Part shown: positions 4,659 to 17,285 of the stretch, piece by piece | How positions within the stretch are numbered: the stretch's first letter is position 1 | Layout of the letters: the number at the start of each line of letters is the position of its first letter | From: an uncultured Duodenibacillus sp. | GTDB taxonomy: Bacteria; Pseudomonadota; Gammaproteobacteria; Burkholderiales; Burkholderiaceae_F | Assembly: GCA_944390715.1 (NCBI GenBank) | Contig: CALXQS010000006.1 | Location: 1-64,000 of the forward strand | DNA: 64,000 nucleotides | Reading direction: 5' to 3' | The notes under the pieces: model-generated | The model's input: only the letters and a program-made list of their open reading frames with translations | Told to the model about the DNA's origin: nothing | Databases searched by the model: none | Program-made: the position numbers and the translations under genes

Positions 4659-5216
4659 ATGAACAAGAACAGCAAATGGTACGCCGGCGCATTGGTGTTG
4701 GTCGGCGTTGTTGTCGGCGTAGCCCTCGTGAGCGCCGGCACGTCGGTTGTGCATTGGTCAGGTTCCACTCAGTTCTGCGGCACTTTCTGCCACTCGATGG
4801 ATGCTGCCTATGCTTCCTACCAGAAGGGTCAGCACGCTGCCACGCATTCCGGCTTTAAGGCTGAGTGCGTTGACTGCCACCTCAAGTATGAATCTGTGCA
4901 CTCCATCAGCCAGGCTCAGGTCGTCGGTCTGCTCTGGCACAAGGCTGTAAGCGGCACCAACTCGCTCATCGGCGAGATCACCGGCACGCTTGACACTCCC
5001 GAAAAGCAGATTCAGCATCGTCCCGTCATGGCTGAAAACGTAACCAACTGGATGAAGTCGGTCAATTACATCACCTGCCGCGGCTGCCACGACCTCAGCA
5101 ACTTCAAGGTCAACAAGGCCAAGCCGATGGTTGCTCAGATGCACAAGGCCATGGCTGAGAATCCGGCAACCGACTGCGTTGCCTGCCATAGCGAAGCTGG
5201 TCACAAGTACGACTAA
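4659..5216 (+). CDS. NapC/NrfH-family membrane-anchored tetraheme cytochrome c
   Basis: Quinol-oxidising cytochrome that passes electrons from the menaquinol pool to a periplasmic reductase. The 185-residue protein has one N-terminal membrane anchor (about residues 8-30) and four haem sites on the periplasmic side: C40-C44-H45, C70-C73-H74, C140-C143-H144 and C173-C176-H177. The last three are CX2CH. The first is CGTFCH, that is CX3CH, followed by S-M, and the methionine matches the CHxM haem-1 arrangement of NrfH. AGGAG precedes the ATG. No terminal reductase is adjacent, so the partner is unknown. It is a single-gene unit with an FNR-like dyad upstream and a terminator downstream. Confidence 0.88.
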   Translation: MNKNSKWYAGALVLVGVVVGVALVSAGTSVVHWSGSTQFCGTFCHSMDAAYASYQKGQHAATHSGFKAECVDCHLKYESVHSISQAQVVGLLWHKAVSGTNSLIGEITGTLDTPEKQIQHRPVMAENVTNWMKSVNYITCRGCHDLSNFKVNKAKPMVAQMHKAMAENPATDCVACHSEAGHKYD

Positions 5217-9964: not shown

Positions 9965-10101
9965 AAAGAAGAGCTCCTCAAGTCAAAATCACTGCACATC
10001 AGTGCTGATTGTATCCGCCTCAAGACAAAAAGGGGAGCCTTGGACGAGTGTGATGGTTGCCAAGATTATAGGCTACGTCCTGCCTGGCAAAGTGGTAAGA
10101 T

Positions 10102-10119
10102 GAAGGCGTTTCGGCCTTC
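10102..10119 (+). other. Small hairpin in the upp leader
   Basis: GAAGGC (10102-10107) and GCCTTC (10114-10119) form a 6-bp stem with a 6-nt loop about 190 bp before upp. It may be part of a structured leader with the next hairpin. Confidence 0.3.
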
Positions 10120-10171
10120 CAGGCTCTCTGGGAGAACCTGCTTTCCAGCAGACTTTCATTTTCCCTTAGCA

Positions 10172-10197
10172 GCGTTGAAGCAGCTCAGCTTCAACGC
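10172..10197 (+). other. Perfect 10-bp hairpin in the upp leader
   Basis: GCGTTGAAGC (10172-10181) and GCTTCAACGC (10188-10197) pair perfectly around AGCTCA. No T-run follows, so it is not a standard terminator. It could be a leader RNA structure or a protein-binding dyad. The rest of the 326-bp gap 9965-10290 shows no gene. Confidence 0.45.
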
Positions 10198-10290
10198 ATC
10201 ATTCGGCTTGGGCACAACCTTGTTTTATTTGCAAAGGATCGAGCGCATCCTTGCGGGCACCATCGACCGTGAGGTTCGCGCCGAAATTCT

Positions 10291-10938
10291 ATGAAGACAG
10301 ATCCCCGATTCCCCCGACTTCACATCGTCGATCACCCGCTCATTCAGCACAAGCTCACCATCATGCGCCAGAAGGAAACCAGCACGAACGTGTTTCGTCA
10401 GCTGCTGCGCGAAATCACCGTGCTGATGGGCTATGAACTCACACGCGATCTGCCGCTTACGGAAAGACGCATTGAAACTCCGATTGCCAGCATGCTCGCA
10501 CCGACGCTGGCAGGCAAAAAGCAGGTTATCGTTCCCGTACTGCGCGCCGGGCTTGGCATGTGCGACGGTCTTCTTGAACTGATGCCTTCTGCTCGCGTAG
10601 GCCATATCGGCATGTACAGAGACAGCAACAAGCGCCCGGTCGAATATCTCGTGCGCCTGCCCAACGTCACCGATCGACTTTTCATCATCTGCGACCCGAT
10701 GCTTGCCACTGGGTATTCTGCAGCTCACGCCGTCGACGTGCTTAAAAAACGCGGCGTCAGCGGCGAATCCATTCGATTCCTGGCACTTGTCTCGGCTCCG
10801 GAGGGCATTGCCGTCATGCAGCAGCTGCACCCTGATATTGAGATTTACGTCGCCTCACTCGATGAAAAGCTCGATGAAAACGCCTACATTGTGCCGGGCC
10901 TGGGAGATGCAGGCGATCGGCTCTTCGGAACAAAGTGA
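10291..10938 (+). CDS. upp: Uracil phosphoribosyltransferase
   Basis: Salvage enzyme making UMP from uracil and PRPP in the cytosol. The 215-residue protein is close to the usual 208-residue length. It carries the N-terminal [15 protein letters not shown] segment, the [19 protein letters not shown] loop, and the PRPP-binding motif [23 protein letters not shown], followed by the C-terminal uracil-binding [14 protein letters not shown]. It is a single-gene unit with a structured leader upstream and a terminator downstream; the nearby DASS gene is convergent. Confidence 0.96.
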
Positions 10939-11021
10939 CCTCCTGACTTCAAGCTGGGAAAACGCTCGTTGATGCCGTGCTTGCGGGCACGCATGCAAAA
11001 CGAAGTTGTTCCTTCTATGAG

Positions 11022-11068
11022 AAAGGACGACGGCTGCTGTGAAAATGCCGTCGTCCTTTCGTTTTTTC
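11022..11068 (+). terminator. Terminator after upp
   Basis: AAAGGACGACGGC (11022-11034) pairs perfectly with GCCGTCGTCCTTT (11047-11059), followed by cgtttttt on the plus strand. Confidence 0.88.
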
Positions 11069-11110
11069 CCTTCCGAGTTATTGCAGGAGCCCCGGGTCAG
11101 GAAACAGGTG

Positions 11111-12664
11111 CTATCCCAACGGAACCTTGAGCGAAGAAATAAGTCCCGGAGAGAAGAAGTAGGCCGTTACCGTGATGATCACAATGCCGATGACGTTGAG
11201 CCAGAATCCAGCACGGATCATGTCGGAGATCTTCAGTCTGCCCGTGCCGAAGACCATGGCGTTGGGCGGCGTGCCTACAGGCATCATGAATGCGCAGCTC
11301 GTACCCATGGTGGCGCAGATCAAAAGCGCTTCGGGATGCATGTCAAGCGACTGTGCCACAGCTGCAATCAAAGGCATGAGCGTAGCAGCCAGAGCCGTAT
11401 TCGAAGTGAATTCCGAGACAAACACCGACAAAGTGGTCACGCCAGTGAGGATGCCCCATTCGGGCAGAGAACCCAGCGCCACGGCGGCAGCGCCCACAGC
11501 ATCAGCCGCACCGGTCTTCTGAATAGCCGCGGCCATCGTCAAGCCGCCGCCAAAGAGCAGGAGCACGTCCCAAGCCACGCCCTTGGAAGCAGACGACCAG
11601 TCAAGCGCGTGAATGCCTTTCTTTATATCCACAGGGATGATGAAGAGCACGATGCCGGCAGCCATTGCGATAACAGTATCGCTCAGGGGCTTGAAGGGCT
11701 TCGTTCCGCCGATTTCCATGCTGCGCAGCACCGGGCCAAACGTCCAGAGCAAGGCTGCAACAACGAAGACAATGAGAACGATCCATTCGCCGCGGGTCAA
11801 TTTCCCCATTCCGTGCAGTTCATTGACCACCCACTCCTTGCCGCCGGGCAGTTCGTCAGGCTGATTGCGATAGAGCACATTCACCAAAAGAACATACGTG
11901 GCGATAAAAAGCAGACCCATGGCTGGCACAGAAATCTTGAGCCAATCAAGAAAGCTCACGGTGTCGCCGTACTGCTGTTCAACGAAACGCACGAAGATGC
12001 CGTTGGGGGGCGTGCCGATCAAGGTGAGCACGCCGCCCACGCTCGCACCATAGGCAATCGACAGCAGCAGGCAGATGCCGAAGTTGCGTTCAGCCTGATC
12101 CATCGGCTGATCGGATCGAACGGAGCGCACCACGCCCATCAATGCCAGAGCGATCGGAAGCATCATGGCTGCAGTAGCCGTATTGCTCACCCAAGCCGAC
12201 ACCAGCGTCGTTGCCAGCATGATGCCCAAAATGATCTGCTTGGGCTTGGTGCCCACGATGCGGATCATCACAAGCGCGATGCGGCGGTCAAGCCCCCAGC
12301 GAGCAATGCCGGCGGCAATCAAAAAGCCGCCCAAGAAGAGAAAGATCGTACCGTTAGCATAGTTTTTGAGCGTATCGGCCGGCGTTGCGATGCCCAAAAT
12401 CGGGTACATCACAATCGGCAGCAAAGCCGTGACGGCAATAGGCACAGGTTCAGTGAACCACCATATGCCCATCCACAACACCATCGCCGTACAGGCACGC
12501 GCTGCGTCAGAGAACTGCACCACATCGCCTTCAGTTCCCACATAGGAAGTCGGCAGAACAAAGTACAGGCACAAGGCAAGAATCGGTCCAAGAAAAAGCG
12601 GTATGAGCTTTGAGCGCTCGCTCAGACCTTCCTCAAGACTGGTTTCATGTTCACGATTCGGCAT
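11111..12664 (-). CDS. DASS-family (SLC13) sodium:dicarboxylate/anion transporter
   Basis: Inner-membrane carrier of 517 residues with about 12-13 hydrophobic segments. The two substrate/sodium signature loops are present: SNTATAAMMLPI in the first half and TSNTALAATLMPL in the second, with the GTPPNG and GTPPNAM turns of the two repeats. The family moves succinate, fumarate, malate, citrate or sulfate; sequence alone does not settle the substrate. A perfect FNR dyad about 185 bp upstream and a fumarate reductase subunit gene as the next gene favour a C4-dicarboxylate. The start ATG has GGAGG seven bases upstream. Confidence 0.88.
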   Translation of the reverse strand: MPNREHETSLEEGLSERSKLIPLFLGPILALCLYFVLPTSYVGTEGDVVQFSDAARACTAMVLWMGIWWFTEPVPIAVTALLPIVMYPILGIATPADTLKNYANGTIFLFLGGFLIAAGIARWGLDRRIALVMIRIVGTKPKQIILGIMLATTLVSAWVSNTATAAMMLPIALALMGVVRSVRSDQPMDQAERNFGICLLLSIAYGASVGGVLTLIGTPPNGIFVRFVEQQYGDTVSFLDWLKISVPAMGLLFIATYVLLVNVLYRNQPDELPGGKEWVVNELHGMGKLTRGEWIVLIVFVVAALLWTFGPVLRSMEIGGTKPFKPLSDTVIAMAAGIVLFIIPVDIKKGIHALDWSSASKGVAWDVLLLFGGGLTMAAAIQKTGAADAVGAAAVALGSLPEWGILTGVTTLSVFVSEFTSNTALAATLMPLIAAVAQSLDMHPEALLICATMGTSCAFMMPVGTPPNAMVFGTGRLKISDMIRAGFWLNVIGIVIITVTAYFFSPGLISSLKVPLG

Positions 12665-12849
12665 GGGGATGCCTCCATTTCAGCTGTTCTAGATCCTTAC
12701 CTCAACACACGGCAGTTTTGCTCAGAGCAGTCATGGCTGGACCAGAGGTTTCTTCAATCAAAAAAATCTGTCGCCCGTTCTTGTCATTTGCATTCCCCTT
12801 CGGAAACTTTTCCGTCGAATGCCAATCTCTGTTAAGACAACAGTCGCGA

Positions 12850-12863
12850 TTGATGTTAATCAA
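12850..12863. promoter_or_regulatory. Perfect FNR box upstream of the DASS transporter
   Basis: TTGAT-GTTA-ATCAA matches the FNR/Anr consensus at all ten defined positions. It lies 186 bp upstream of the DASS start on the minus strand; no plus-strand gene begins within 2 kb. No convincing -10 is seen at class II spacing (GATTGG there). The rest of 12665-13060 has no gene. Confidence 0.7.
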
Positions 12864-13060
12864 GTTCATTTGGTTGGTAAAGTCCGTTTTCTGAGTGTTA
12901 TCCCTTGTAATTTTTAGTATCTTTTCGTCATGCAAAATGACTTCTTATTTATCTGGGTTATTCGTTACAGCAGATCGCCTATGGTTAAGCAATTTTCCTG
13001 ATGGAAAAATCTCATCCTTCATCAGCAGAACAGGTTGATCAGCGCGCCTTGTCAAGGCAT

Positions 13061-13092
13061 AAAAAAAGATCTCCTACATCAAGCAGGAGACC
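13061..13092 (-). terminator. Terminator after frdC
   Basis: On the minus strand GGTCTCCT pairs with AGGAGATC (one G-T wobble) around a nine-base loop and is followed by TTTTTTT. It closes the frdC transcript. Confidence 0.8.
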
Positions 13093-13148
13093 TCTTGTCT
13101 TAGGCTTCTGCGCCCATCCTCCAAAGATAGGCGCAAGTGCTTTACTGA

Positions 13149-13937
13149 TTACTTGGCAAACCAGTTGTCCTGGGGAACATAGCGCGTTGCAGCCTGGTCG
13201 CTTTCGACGAGCTGCTGGCCGTTGCTCCAGAATGTGTAGGCCGTCAGAGAACCGCAGCAGATCATCAGGAAGGCGATGACAACCATGGTCTTGCGGAAGC
13301 CGTGAGCACGACCCTTGATGACGTCCCACTTCACGCCCAGACGATACAGACCGATCATGCCGTGAATCTCAGTGGCCACCAGGAAGATGAACGTCCAGAT
13401 CAGGCCGTTGTGATAGGTGTGCACGGACGACAGGTTGGGGTCAATCTGCGAAGGAGCCGTGAGCATGCCCATCACGTGCGGGAACACCATGCCGGTAAGG
13501 ATGATGGCCGTCACAAACTGGAAGAACCACAGCGTCGTGTCAGCGTGATGCACAACGGTCACGTGAGCGCGGATGTCGCGGAACTGCTTGTAGGAGGTCG
13601 GGAAGCGGCGCAGGGCGCACAGAGCGTGGATGATCACGCAGAGCGTGATGAAGCCCACGAAGACAAAGTGCAGCCAAACCTGTTCATGGCCGAAAATCGG
13701 GGTGCCGCCGGAAATCTGAATCAGATTCCAGAAGAGATCCTTGCCAACCTGAATCGAACTCGTGAAGGCCATGTGGCAGAAGAGGAAAAGGCCGAGGATC
13801 AGGCCGGTAACGGACTGAGCCACGTCCACATAAGCAGGCCACTTGCTGGCGCGCTTAGCATCCTTCAACGTCACGCCGGCGATCACTTCGGGACCAGTCG
13901 GAGTATGAGCAAACTTGATTTGTTCAGGAGTCGTCAT
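13149..13937 (-). CDS. frdC: Fumarate reductase dihaem cytochrome b subunit (Wolinella type)
   Basis: Membrane anchor that oxidises menaquinol and delivers electrons to the FrdAB flavoprotein and iron-sulfur subunits. The 262-residue protein has five membrane segments. Candidate haem ligands H55, H104, H154 and H192 have spacings 49-50-38, almost identical to the 49-50-39 spacing of the four haem ligands of Wolinella succinogenes FrdC. It is a single-gene unit: frdA and frdB are not adjacent on either side, although the three genes usually form one operon. AAGGA precedes the ATG. An FNR-like box at class II spacing lies upstream. Confidence 0.9.
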   Translation of the reverse strand: MTTPEQIKFAHTPTGPEVIAGVTLKDAKRASKWPAYVDVAQSVTGLILGLFLFCHMAFTSSIQVGKDLFWNLIQISGGTPIFGHEQVWLHFVFVGFITLCVIIHALCALRRFPTSYKQFRDIRAHVTVVHHADTTLWFFQFVTAIILTGMVFPHVMGMLTAPSQIDPNLSSVHTYHNGLIWTFIFLVATEIHGMIGLYRLGVKWDVIKGRAHGFRKTMVVIAFLMICCGSLTAYTFWSNGQQLVESDQAATRYVPQDNWFAK

Positions 13938-14036
13938 GACTTTCTTCCTTGTTGGGAAACGAATGAGTTGGGGTCGCGCCGTCCAATTTTTTGGTCTTTC
14001 TGTAAACGGAAAAACGGCGCTCGTTTTCTTGGCGTA

Positions 14037-14078
14037 ATCATGCTCCTTTCAGACTGGTTTAATATTGATTTTCGTCAA
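14037..14078 (-). promoter_or_regulatory. FNR-class II promoter of frdC
   Basis: Dyad TTGAT-TTTC-GTCAA (14065-14078) matches the FNR consensus in nine of ten positions. Counting 41.5 bp from its centre predicts a start near 14030, and the hexamer at the corresponding -10 position (14042-14037) is CATGAT, four of six matches to TATAAT. This is the layout of a directly FNR-activated promoter. The leader would be about 93 nt. Confidence 0.65.
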
Positions 14079-14245
14079 ACTTCTTTTTGTTACATCGTAG
14101 AAGATTTTTCTAAAACAGTCGGAATTCAAGGGTTATCCCGCATAAAAAAAGCTAAAACAAGATAGTTTTTGCTCATTGTCCAAGGGTTTACCCTTTCTTT
14201 TTGCAAAAAAAGTCGTTGGCTCTGATGCTCGCCAGGACTTCGCTT

Positions 14246-14431
14246 TTATGTCAGAGGAAGCTCGACGAGTTTCGCAGTGCCCAATTCTTTTTTTGCTGAC
14301 TTTTTCAGTGCGTCATACTGAGCACCCGCAATATCCTCCAGCAGCTCGTTTGCAATGTCTTCGCTGTCGAGCTCAGCGATCAGATGCGCAAAACCGCAGC
14401 TGGAGGTTTTTCTTTTGAGCCGTCGAGGCAT
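14246..14431 (-). CDS. Hypothetical 61-residue small protein
   Basis: Short frame starting MPRRLKRKT and continuing with an acidic, helix-like stretch (HLIAELDSEDIANELLEDIAG) and a lysine-rich end. It follows the MBL hydrolase on the same strand after 28 bp. The amino-acid make-up looks protein-like, but I recognise no family and see no strong ribosome site. It may be a genuine small gene or the tail of a decayed one. The frame also continues upstream, overlapping the hydrolase, but that part looks random. Confidence 0.35.
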   Translation of the reverse strand: MPRRLKRKTSSCGFAHLIAELDSEDIANELLEDIAGAQYDALKKSAKKELGTAKLVELPLT

Positions 14432-14459
14432 GCTTAGAGCGATCCGCGGCTCATAGCGC

Positions 14460-15245
14460 TCAGAACACAAGTGTTTGACCGTCATCGGGAATCCACAGCC
14501 GGTCAAGCTCTTTTTGGGCTGCAAATTCACGCAGCATCCCTCGCGTGACCGTTGCATGAGAAACGCCCTCGACATGCGTTGCAATGACTTCAACCTGTGG
14601 GAATCGTCTCATCATAGCGAGTACGTCATACTGATTCATGATCAGCAGGTGCCCAAGCGGAAATTGGGCGCCAGCGGCATTAACGGCGACGATGCCGGGC
14701 CTGTATTTTTCAACGGCATCAATCACGTGCTGACAGAAGATGGTGTCGCCGGCAAGGTAAAAGGGCGATTTTACCTCGGTGCTTAAGAAAACGACGCCGC
14801 TTGCTTTTTCGCTCAAACCTCCTTGCTGATAGCCGTAAAGCGTAACCAGACTGCTCGAGCCGTGATCGCACTCGGTACGGTGAAGCCTGACGCCGTCAAA
14901 GTCGCACCCTTCACTTAAAAGTATGCGAACGTCTTTGAATCCGAATCCGGCAAGCACTTGAGCTTCTTGCTCGCTTTGCGAAAAGATTGGAAGATGCTTG
15001 GGCAAAAGCCGGGCTGCGACATCATCGAAATGATCAAAATGCAGGTGCGTGGCAATAACTGCATCGACTTCAAAGAGCTCTTCGATCTTGCACGGAAGAC
15101 TGCAGTCAGGATTGCCGCGCCCCGTGTTGGTGGTATCGGGTACAGATGGATAGGCGCCCTGCTCGGCAAGCATCGGATCAATCAAAAACCGTTTGCCTGC
15201 AAACGTCACGATGCTTGTGGCGCTTCGAATTTGCTGAAACTTCAT
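14460..15245 (-). CDS. MBL-fold metal-dependent hydrolase (UlaG-like)
   Basis: The 261-residue protein has the metallo-beta-lactamase-fold motif THLHFDHFDD (HxHxDH), the N-terminal TSIVTFAGKRFLIDPML strand, a second metal site near ECDHGSSS, FYLAGDTIF with the bridging aspartate, and a late histidine in VIATHVEGVSHATV. These are the landmarks of UlaG/YcbL-type MBL hydrolases; the substrate is unknown. It is transcribed away from a MerR regulator across about 100 bp holding a MerR-like dyad, so it is probably the regulator's target. Confidence 0.82.
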   Translation of the reverse strand: MKFQQIRSATSIVTFAGKRFLIDPMLAEQGAYPSVPDTTNTGRGNPDCSLPCKIEELFEVDAVIATHLHFDHFDDVAARLLPKHLPIFSQSEQEAQVLAGFGFKDVRILLSEGCDFDGVRLHRTECDHGSSSLVTLYGYQQGGLSEKASGVVFLSTEVKSPFYLAGDTIFCQHVIDAVEKYRPGIVAVNAAGAQFPLGHLLIMNQYDVLAMMRRFPQVEVIATHVEGVSHATVTRGMLREFAAQKELDRLWIPDDGQTLVF

Positions 15246-15303
15246 GATTCGGCCTTGTGAAAAAATTAAGAAGAAAAGGAAATTGATCTGCAGGGATCAT
15301 AAA

Positions 15304-15322
15304 AGCTATAGTTGCTGTAGGT
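15304..15322. promoter_or_regulatory. Candidate MerR operator
   Basis: AGCTATAG-TTG-CTGTAGGT is an imperfect 19-bp dyad (six of eight bases symmetric in each arm), the size and look of MerR-family operators. It lies midway between the divergent MBL hydrolase and MerR genes. Confidence 0.5.
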
Positions 15323-15346
15323 TCAAGTTTAAATTTGGGGACAATT

Positions 15347-15721
15347 GTGAAAATTGGTGAATTGGCAAGCAAGACGGGCTGCCCCGTTTCAAGAATTCGC
15401 TTTTACGAGCAAAAGGGCCTTCTGCCCGAACCCGCCCGCAGCATTGGAGGACAACGCATCTATTCTCAGAGTGCCGTCGAAAGGCTTGATTTCATTGCGA
15501 CCTGCCGCGCCAACGGAATGAAGCTCGAATGCATTGAGCGCTTCATTGAGTTTGAAAAAGATCCTTCTCGAGGCACCCAATGGCTGCTTGAAAAAATTGA
15601 TGGCTATCTGCAGCAGGTTGAGCTTTGCCGCGCCCAAATCAACAAAGCCGAAGCCTATCTCAAGCAGCTGCGCGAAAAGTTTCCCGCTGACGTTCTTGCA
15701 AGATCCGGAAAAGACAGCTGA
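15347..15721 (+). CDS. MerR-family transcriptional regulator
   Basis: DNA-binding regulator of 124 residues: an N-terminal MerR helix-turn-helix (KIGELASKTGCPVSRIRFYEQKGLLPEP, then GGQRIYSQSAVERL) and a C-terminal dimerisation helix (about residues 75-112). Starting at GTG 15347 gives a normal MerR N-terminus with GGGGA at 15337-15341 as ribosome site; a TTG four codons earlier is less likely. Three cysteines outside the helix-turn-helix do not match the metal-binding pattern of MerR, CueR or SoxR, so the inducer is unknown. Divergent from the MBL hydrolase. Confidence 0.85.
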   Translation: MKIGELASKTGCPVSRIRFYEQKGLLPEPARSIGGQRIYSQSAVERLDFIATCRANGMKLECIERFIEFEKDPSRGTQWLLEKIDGYLQQVELCRAQINKAEAYLKQLREKFPADVLARSGKDS

Positions 15722-15770
15722 AGCGACGAGCTTGCCATACTGGAAAATTCAACAGGCTCCAGCAGCAAGC

Positions 15771-15926
15771 TCAACCAAAGCATTGAGTGCTGCGGCAAGT
15801 TGGGATTGATTCTGATGCGCAGGCAGCTGCGCCTTTATGCTTGTTTTTCAACAAGAGCTTGCGTTTGGAGACGGCGGCGACGTGCAATGCGCAATAATTG
15901 CGAGCGAGAGGCTTAGAAATCGTCAT
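15771..15926 (-). CDS. Possible 51-residue small protein with a strong ribosome site
   Basis: The ATG at 15926 is preceded by AAGGAGG at ideal distance, the strongest ribosome-binding sequence in this part of the window. The frame encodes a basic peptide (MTISKPLARNY, then KRKLLLKNKHKG) ending after 51 codons. The downstream bases in a shifted frame encode a plausible helical peptide (QLAAALNALVELAAGAC) that stops near 15748, so this may be a gene broken by a frameshift rather than an intact small gene. No family recognised. Otherwise 15722-16190 holds no gene. Confidence 0.35.
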   Translation of the reverse strand: MTISKPLARNYCALHVAAVSKRKLLLKNKHKGAAACASESIPTCRSTQCFG

Positions 15927-16190
15927 GGATCCTCCTTGCCCACGAGTGGCCCCGCGAAGTCTTGGCGGCATCATTTGCAACCGGAAGATGAAACATAAAG
16001 TCGTCAGCATCCGCTGATAGTCATTTTTTACACGCCTGACAGCAAGCCAGAACAATATAAGGTACGAAACCCGGGAAGCTGCAATTATTTAAGCTGGGAA
16101 AACGCTTTCATGGCAGAAGGTGCACGACGCGTTTCAAAGCGCTCACTTTCATTTCTGACCACATGTCATACCTCGCGGAGGCTTCTCGTT

Positions 16191-17285
16191 ATGGATTTCG
16201 TCTGCACAAAGTGCGGCAAGCGCACTTCTACAACAACTCACGCCCCGTGCTGCTCCTGCGGCGGTCTTTTTGAGCTTAACTTCACGCCGCCCAAGTGGGA
16301 CCCCTCGCTCATCGACCAAAATGAATGGAGTCTGTTTCGCTATCGCCGATTCATGGCGCTTGAAGGCGACTCCTGGCGCGAGGTGACCATGGGCGAAGGC
16401 CGCACGCCGATCATCTCGCTTGATGACGACGTGATGCTCAAAATGGACTACATGATGCCCACGCTTTCCTTTAAGGATCGCGGCGCTGCAACTTTGGTGG
16501 CGCACATGAAGGCCATCGGCGTGAAGACCTGCGTTCAGGACTCAAGCGGAAATGCGGGCAATGCCGTAGCAGCCTATGCGGCACGCGCAGGCATCAGCTG
16601 TGAAATTTTTGTTCCTGAAGGAACGAGCCCCTCGAAGATCCGCATGATCGAGTCGCACGGCGCCAAGGCAAACGTTGTTCCCGGCACGCGCGACCACTGT
16701 GCAGACGTTTGCCGTGCCAAAGTGCGCGACGAAGGCGCCTACTATGCCAATCATGTCTACAACCCGTTTTTCTACGAAGGCATGAAGGCCTACATCTATG
16801 AAACCTTTGAAGAACTAGGCCGGATCCCCGCCAATATTGTGATTCCCGTCGGCAACGGCACGCTTTTCATCGGCGCCATCAAGGCGCTCGAACACCTGCT
16901 GGCCTCCGGCGCCATCGAAAAATTCCCGCAGATCATCGCCCTGCAAAGCGCGCACTGCGATCCTCTCTACCAGGCCTGGCTTGCCAAATCTCCAAATCCT
17001 GCACATGTCTCCCCTGCGCCCACCATGGCCGAAGGCATCGCCATCGGCGTACCCATGAGAGGCAAAGAGCTGCTTGACATGGCCCGCCGACACAATGTTC
17101 GCTTTGTCCTCGCTCCCGAAGAGACGATTCTTGCCGCTCGAGCAGCCATCGCCGCACGGGGCGTGTACTGCGAACACACCACGGCGGCCAACTATGCCGC
17201 CTACCTCAACTACTGCCGCATTTACGGACCGACCCCGGACACGCTCATCGCCATGTGCGGTGCGGGCATCAAGTCTGATCATTGA
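16191..17285 (+). CDS. Threonine-synthase-like PLP-dependent enzyme with zinc ribbon
   Basis: The 364-residue enzyme starts with a zinc ribbon (C5, C8, C20/C21, C23), then a fold-type II PLP domain. The Schiff-base lysine is K95 in PTLSFKDRG, phosphate-binding and substrate loops are SSGNAGNA and PVGNGTLFIG, and the late glycine turn is MCGAGIK. This matches the group of archaeal/bacterial threonine synthases that carry an N-terminal zinc finger, which make threonine from O-phosphohomoserine. No other threonine genes are near, so a related lyase is possible. The ATG at 16191 has GGAGG upstream. The stop codon overlaps the convergent uvrA stop by seven bases. Confidence 0.78.
   Translation: MDFVCTKCGKRTSTTTHAPCCSCGGLFELNFTPPKWDPSLIDQNEWSLFRYRRFMALEGDSWREVTMGEGRTPIISLDDDVMLKMDYMMPTLSFKDRGAATLVAHMKAIGVKTCVQDSSGNAGNAVAAYAARAGISCEIFVPEGTSPSKIRMIESHGAKANVVPGTRDHCADVCRAKVRDEGAYYANHVYNPFFYEGMKAYIYETFEELGRIPANIVIPVGNGTLFIGAIKALEHLLASGAIEKFPQIIALQSAHCDPLYQAWLAKSPNPAHVSPAPTMAEGIAIGVPMRGKELLDMARRHNVRFVLAPEETILAARAAIAARGVYCEHTTAANYAAYLNYCRIYGPTPDTLIAMCGAGIKSDH

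Follow-up and report, generated by a model that had tools for sequence, protein, structure and literature searches.

The FNR-type box TTGATGTTAATCAA at 12850-12863 (TTGATTAACATCAA when read towards the gene that it precedes) is best explained as a genuine site, predicted from its sequence and its conservation, of the single canonical FNR encoded in the genome of this gut bacterium. The data support it as a candidate switch which, as far as visible, would serve one gene alone, that of a carrier of the DASS family. In a dyad scan of the window (the whole stretch of DNA that was analysed, 64 kb), it was the only TTGAT-N4-ATCAA with zero mismatches, which confirms the full consensus match (with GTTA as the spacer) reported in the earlier note. 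The box is separated by 185 bp from the ATG of the DASS gene on the minus strand. To its right lie the 3′ end of frdC (minus strand) and, behind frdC, a 14-bp hairpin with a U run; thus, the box belongs to a separate intergenic promoter region. No other candidate gene was seen around it, in agreement with the initial view that no gene other than the DASS gene can be served by it.

11111-12664, minus strand: gene for a DASS-family anion:Na+ symporter of 517 aa, proposed to carry C4-dicarboxylates (TIGR00785, PF00939)
12850-12863, no strand assigned: FNR-type box before the DASS gene (dyad scan and genus conservation)
13061-13096, minus strand: hairpin with U run downstream of frdC, a probable intrinsic terminator that sets frdC apart from the DASS gene (fold calculation)

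For the hairpin (at about 13061-13096), a 71-nt fold of −26 kcal/mol (z −3.6) was calculated; it was not among the matches of a simple terminator scan, and no family reached its gathering score in an Rfam scan of 10000-16500.

Of 41 genomes, 28 contained relatives of the carrier (distant paralogues included), and matches of at least 48% identity yielded an orthologue set of 17 upstream regions (the window and 16 others; G001, where the DASS gene is cut off at its contig end, was left out of the counts). Eleven of the 17 had a box with one mismatch or none (the window, G005, G008, G004, G009, G006, G007, G002, G003, G019, and G010), including all nine Duodenibacillus genomes with readable upstream DNA. 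It was absent from the other six (G024, G022, G013, G029, and two loci of G014), from four more distant relatives (37-40% identity), and from the Sutterellaceae-type loci L067, L068, and L072, of which L068 resembles one of the G014 loci. Nor did the second DASS gene of the genome, a distant PF00939 match on contig 29, have a box better than two mismatches. Dinucleotide shuffles of 10 of the 11 positive regions reached at most one mismatch in 10-59 of 1,000 cases. As an outside control, 80 relatives in named genome records were inspected, 78 of which had enough upstream DNA; three were box-positive, two of them being G004 and G007, which leaves a box with at most one mismatch before 1 of 76 other carrier relatives. 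In an alignment of ten positive upstream regions, nine of the ten consensus positions were invariant, the surrounding DNA having mostly diverged; the usual form of the box in the relatives is TTGAC-N4-ATCAA. It is therefore the conservation before the same gene across the genus, and not the frequency of the dyad, that places the DASS box beyond chance.

From the site, its conservation, the FNR gene, the family and motifs of the carrier, and a second site common to the DASS and frdC promoters, all of which were observed directly, we infer FNR binding, the sign of control, the substrate, and a second regulator. Without oxygen, the [4Fe-4S] FNR dimer would bind the dyad at 12850-12863 and control the one-gene DASS transcript, most likely by activation, as at frdC. 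The carrier would most likely move C4-dicarboxylates (fumarate, malate, and succinate) with sodium and thereby feed fumarate respiration. A second regulator probably binds a palindrome about four helical turns upstream of the DASS box, and together with FNR it would provide control by oxygen plus substrate or respiratory state. The scheme as a whole, i.e., FNR on the dyad controlling a C4 carrier for fumarate respiration with a second regulator alongside, is considered probable; such a switch would probably tie fumarate/succinate traffic to anaerobic life.

The carrier and its substrate

The DASS gene product scored 304.2 bits against TIGR00785 (cut-off 198.6) and also matched PF00939, which assigns it to the DASS family. 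Its best solved relatives in a single-sequence search were NaDC1 (250.6 bits), NaDC3, and VcINDY, followed by the citrate carrier (201.6 bits) and SLC13A1 (198.1 bits); in a profile search, the order was NaDC1, NaDC3 (340.2 bits), the citrate carrier (339.2 bits), the sulfate carrier SLC13A1 (302.6 bits), and VcINDY (293.9 bits). Both halves of the carrier contain SNT, and its late loop contains TPPN; this matches NaDC3 and VcINDY, whereas SLC13A1 has SNP and NPPN at the corresponding places; it thus has the features of the carboxylate branch (SNT-type plus TPPN, not SNP/NPPN). The threonine of TPPN would touch the substrate. NaDC1, NaDC3 (SLC13A2/A3, human), and VcINDY share the family and the TPPN loop with the carrier, and VcINDY and NaDC3 also share SNT in both halves, NaDC1 having SNV in the second; unlike these three, the carrier stands in a bacterial respiratory context and its substrate is a predicted one. 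Motifs and matches together favor a carboxylate and disfavor sulfate, without telling C4 acids, citrate, and alpha-ketoglutarate apart. The original proposal of a C4-dicarboxylate rather than sulfate is thus upheld by the motifs as to carboxylate over sulfate, but not as to C4 acids over citrate or alpha-ketoglutarate.

That the carrier is under FNR control but transports citrate, alpha-ketoglutarate, tartrate, or another anion is an alternative that we consider unlikely. The DASS family is broad, the human citrate carrier came within about one bit of NaDC3 in the profile search, and the FNR-induced DASS carrier C5038 of uropathogenic Escherichia coli serves alpha-ketoglutarate (PMC5318444). 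On the other hand, NaDC1, NaDC3, and VcINDY ranked ahead of the citrate carrier in the single-sequence search, and the carrier gene has frdC as its neighbor, both of which favor C4-dicarboxylates. C5038 resembles the carrier in its family and in its anaerobic, FNR-dependent expression, but differs in its substrate and in having SAT for SNT; RpoN and ArcA control it as well, and its promoter contains a KguR site (PMC5318444). In the rumen succinate producer Actinobacillus succinogenes, Asuc_0304, Asuc_1568, and Asuc_1482 are likewise DASS carriers and transport C4-dicarboxylates, but Asuc_0304 is constitutive and the other two are raised in aerobic growth on fumarate; FNR does not occur in the text of that paper (PMC6011838).

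The frdC promoter and the sign of FNR control

The gene to the right of the carrier, frdC, has an FNR-type box of its own, as the earlier note had already seen.

13149-13937, minus strand: frdC, encoding the cytochrome b anchor (dihaem type) of a quinol:fumarate reductase of the Wolinella type (PDB match and NCBIfam)
14065-14078, minus strand: FNR-type box before frdC, TTGACGAAAATCAA, one mismatch (scan and alignment)
14037-14042, minus strand: CATGAT, class II −10 element for frdC at offsets 23-28 past the box (offset scoring)
12830-12837, minus strand: TCTTAACA element, possible −10 or half-site, offsets 13-20 after the DASS box (alignment and offset scoring)

The best PDB match of FrdC was the FrdC of W. 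succinogenes (1qlb chain C, E 6e-31), and its score against NCBIfam PRK13553 was 179.6 bits, slightly below the cut-off of 187; by this overall match, it can be assigned to the dihaem type. The gene is next to the DASS gene in 7 of the 17 orthologue loci. Its box was kept with zero or one mismatch in seven of seven aligned loci (the distances for G009, whose frdC start was placed some codons late, are approximate) and was also found in G001 and G003. When −10 elements were scored with a −10 table, offset 23 had the best mean among 49 offsets over seven loci, which corresponds exactly to class II spacing.

In Wolinella-type fumarate reductases, frdC, frdA, and frdB form one operon. Here, by contrast, frdC is in the window; its partners frdA and frdB map to contig 12, where they precede aspA-dcu in a frdA-frdB-aspA-dcu cluster (L166:262-6776). 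Despite this separation, it is frdC to which the FNR site belongs among the subunit genes; a box with up to two mismatches, sought within 600 bp of frdA, was not found. Of the oxygen-controlled dicarboxylate/fumarate module envisaged in the earlier note, the frdC box, the DASS box, and a true FNR are thus in place, but frdA and frdB lie elsewhere, with no such box within 600 bp. The sdhA/frdA flavoprotein model gave 53 matching stretches in the genome, one of them above the cut-off and several genes giving two stretches; by these matches, the genome appears to hold a large set of fumarate-reductase-like flavoproteins.

At the DASS promoter, none of the class II offsets (22-24) stood out for a −10 element in the eight orthologues scored. 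The best of 49 offsets was 16, within the conserved TCTTAACA, with a weak mean score (0.11). Offset scoring therefore speaks provisionally against a box center at about −41.5; if offset 16 holds the −10 element, the center would be near −34.5. TCTTAACA is identical in six of the eight scored orthologues, related forms (CGTTTACA/CGTTTACG) occur in G007 and G019, and it is absent in G002 and G003, both outside the scored set. For comparison, 19 of 23 FNR-activated promoters of E. coli have the box at −41.5 ± 4, and repressing sites are spread from −125.5 to +1 (PMC3688515). Because no −10 element stood out at class II spacing, FNR activation of the DASS gene is likely, but not fixed.

The opposite sign is rather improbable. 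FNR would then bind the box but repress the DASS gene, the box covering the −35 region and the conserved TAACA element serving as the −10. This would fit the geometry implied by offset 16 and the wide range of repressing sites (PMC3688515), and there is a precedent in kgtP, the gene for the alpha-ketoglutarate carrier of E. coli, which is repressed by FNR from a site between −10 and −35 (PMC5318444). Against it stand the weakness of the −10 score at offset 16 and the activating geometry of the partner frdC, with which the DASS promoter has the second site in common; furthermore, anaerobic shut-off of the carrier would make little sense for a respiratory anaerobe. Activation of the DASS gene by FNR is thus the preferred reading.

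In E. coli, fumarate reductase and C4 carriers are established targets of FNR (PMC3688515), and the FNR part of the present scheme is mechanistically ordinary, in a group that has received little study. As here, FNR controls both fumarate reductase (frdABCD) and a dicarboxylate carrier (dcuC) in E. coli, and the class II spacing seen at frdC is the rule at FNR-activated promoters of that organism (PMC3688515). Differences are that the carrier here is of the DASS family and not a Dcu protein, that frdC is split from frdAB, that the DASS box departs from class II spacing, and that a second palindrome accompanies the box. Among the matches listed for literature on Duodenibacillus, Parasutterella, and Sutterellaceae, there was no FNR study, as judged by title. 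In a rumen study in which red seaweed suppressed methane, transcripts of hydrogen-uptake hydrogenase rose, predominantly from a Duodenibacillus genome, for which the authors suggested H2/fumarate respiration with Dcu carriers; FNR does not occur in that text (PMC12613782). The sites described here offer a testable regulatory map for this H2/fumarate trait, comprising a fumarate reductase anchor and a DASS carrier beside Dcu, both under predicted FNR control, and a second regulator.

FNR and the dyad in the whole genome

The genome (2.21 Mb, 46 contigs) encodes one true FNR, which, when aligned to the solved FNR, has the C-x2-C-x5-C cluster, the fourth cysteine, and the ETVSR motif of the recognition helix, and which passes NCBIfam PRK11161 (237 bits, cut-off 228). 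The gene adjoins hemN. FNR was found in nine genomes of the genus but not in the tenth, G001, which is 84% complete. Two further genes match HTH_Crp_2, and in principle the box might be used by one of these CRP/FNR-family proteins and not by the oxygen-sensing FNR. This is very unlikely: the one inspected in full (L008) has VQVTR for ETVSR, lacks the N-terminal cysteine cluster, and reaches only 24 bits against the FNR model, and the other (L009) is a partial match (28.8 bits).

Perfect TTGAT-N4-ATCAA dyads occur six times in the whole genome, compared with 6.4 expected from half-site frequency and 2.7-7.3 from Markov models (orders 1-4; training set of 128.5 kb from the genome, including stretches chosen because of their dyads). 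The perfect dyad as such is thus not enriched but present at chance level, and for this reason its perfection alone proves little; the notion that a full consensus match is telling by itself had to be abandoned, and the dyad was rejected as stand-alone evidence. Three of the six precede the DASS gene, a multihaem cytochrome (C3:47779), and a Tim44-like gene (C1:93651), respectively; one is inside an AAA ATPase ORF (C3:101509), and the other two are in a contig-end repeat (C4:34 and C16:45482). The one within the ATPase ORF was rejected as an FNR site, as were the two repeat copies, which represent one 77-bp contig-end repeat with the dyad inside a longer hairpin; the one at the Tim44-like gene was kept as a possible site. 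These identical contig ends of ∼77 bp (L013:1-77 and L014:4953-5029) are probably a repeat end; a tRNA search on L013 found none, and the C4 copy of the dyad lies 137 bp before an aldo/keto-reductase-like ORF. Three of the five distinct perfect sites (AAA ATPase ORF, contig-end hairpin, and Tim44-like gene) are therefore away from anaerobic promoters, so that the outcome which the earlier note had named as speaking against the site, i.e., such dyads being common at genes without an anaerobic role, was in part what the scan returned. That the dyad at 12850-12863 is a chance palindrome without function is nevertheless the least credible reading, because the chance-level count and the perfect dyads inside genes or in the repeat are set against its conservation before one gene in nine of nine genus genomes (chance per region 1.0-5.9%) and its presence before just 1 of 76 other relatives of the carrier.

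Dyads with one mismatch number 134 in the genome, and the subset TTGAYN4ATCAA, which was the one examined, occurs at 15 places. Seven are upstream of genes (hemN/fnr, frdC, the DASS gene, aspA-dcu, a flavocytochrome c, the multihaem cytochrome, and the Tim44-like gene; eight if the C4 contig-end copy before the aldo/keto-reductase-like ORF is counted), and six of these seven precede genes of anaerobic respiration, of haem synthesis together with fnr itself, or of fumarate metabolism. Five of the remaining eight are inside ORFs, one is between convergent genes, and two are in the contig-end repeat. The site of aspA-dcu is 358 bp before aspA, which is followed by dcu.

Two cytochrome loci were noted on the way. 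A set on contig 3 (L011:741-6578), comprising genes for a flavocytochrome c, a 684-aa multihaem cytochrome, and a rhodanese, contains two FNR-type sites and one perfect copy of the second palindrome and possibly encodes a sulfur-compound reductase. In the window, 4659-5216 encodes a small cytochrome of the NapC/NirT/NrfH type with four haem-binding motifs, and the neighboring ORFs inspected included no obvious reductase partner for it.

A second palindrome at the frdC and DASS promoters

Both promoters contain, in addition to the FNR-type box, copies of a rare AGGGTWWACCCT-like palindrome, which the earlier note had missed, and this is the part of the system that may be new; among the matches listed for its letter strings in the literature, none was relevant by title.

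12894-12905, minus strand: second palindrome, DASS copy AGGGATAACACT, a 12-mer starting 42 bp before the start of the box (frdC-trained matrix)
14129-14140, minus strand: second palindrome, proximal frdC copy, starting 62 bp before the start of the frdC box (alignment and matrix)
14183-14194, minus strand: second palindrome, distal frdC copy AGGGTAAACCCT, starting 116 bp before the start of the frdC box (genome scan)

Two copies with zero to three mismatches are found upstream of the frdC FNR box in seven of seven loci, one starting 62 bp and the other 116 bp (115 bp in G009 and 105 bp in G007) ahead of the start of the box. When a matrix was built from the frdC copies alone, the DASS copy, which was not part of the training, ranked second in the window; the scores were 17.9, 16.8, and 16.7, followed by 8.5, the first and third being the frdC training copies. 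The best site within 100 bp was at −42 or −43 in 7 of 10 DASS promoters, some with weak scores (those of G006 and G007 were matched by 19 and 32 of 500 shuffles, respectively), and three promoters (G005, G002, and G003) had no copy at this position. An interpretation of the palindrome as a terminator was rejected: 14182-14195 is terminator-like on the plus strand, but no plus-strand gene precedes it.

Perfect copies are limited to two in the genome, the distal one before frdC and one before the multihaem cytochrome, where it starts 30 bp from a perfect FNR box. Across the genus, 14 perfect copies were found in 6 of 10 genomes (none in the other four) and none for a reversed control. They are associated with frdC (four), the multihaem cytochrome (two), Dcu carriers (two), a CitMHS_2 carrier (one), a propeller-repeat protein with a repeat of the nitrous-oxide-reductase type (one), and others (four); for 6 of the 14, there is an FNR box within 250 bp that deviates at no more than one position.

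The distances between the centers of palindrome and FNR site (31, 43, 63, 106, and 117 bp) are near whole helical turns, with a coherence of 0.91 at a 10.5-bp repeat compared with 0.27 at 10.0. Random sets were equally coherent in 674 of 100,000 cases, or 2,992 when the G007 spacing was omitted; the phasing was noticed before it was tested, and spacings varying by 1-2 bp (G009, G019, G001, and G003) were left out. Whether these sites form a two-part promoter code for the fumarate respiration of Duodenibacillus, in which FNR and an undescribed regulator on the AGGGTWWACCCT-like palindrome would act from the same face of the DNA at frdC, the DASS gene, the multihaem cytochrome, and Dcu genes of sister species, is in our estimation evenly balanced. 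At one mismatch, the palindrome was not enriched in the genome (four copies, nine for the reversed control). One-mismatch copies lie 153 bp before gltA (citrate synthase; L181, contig 32) and 217 bp before recA (L180, contig 2).
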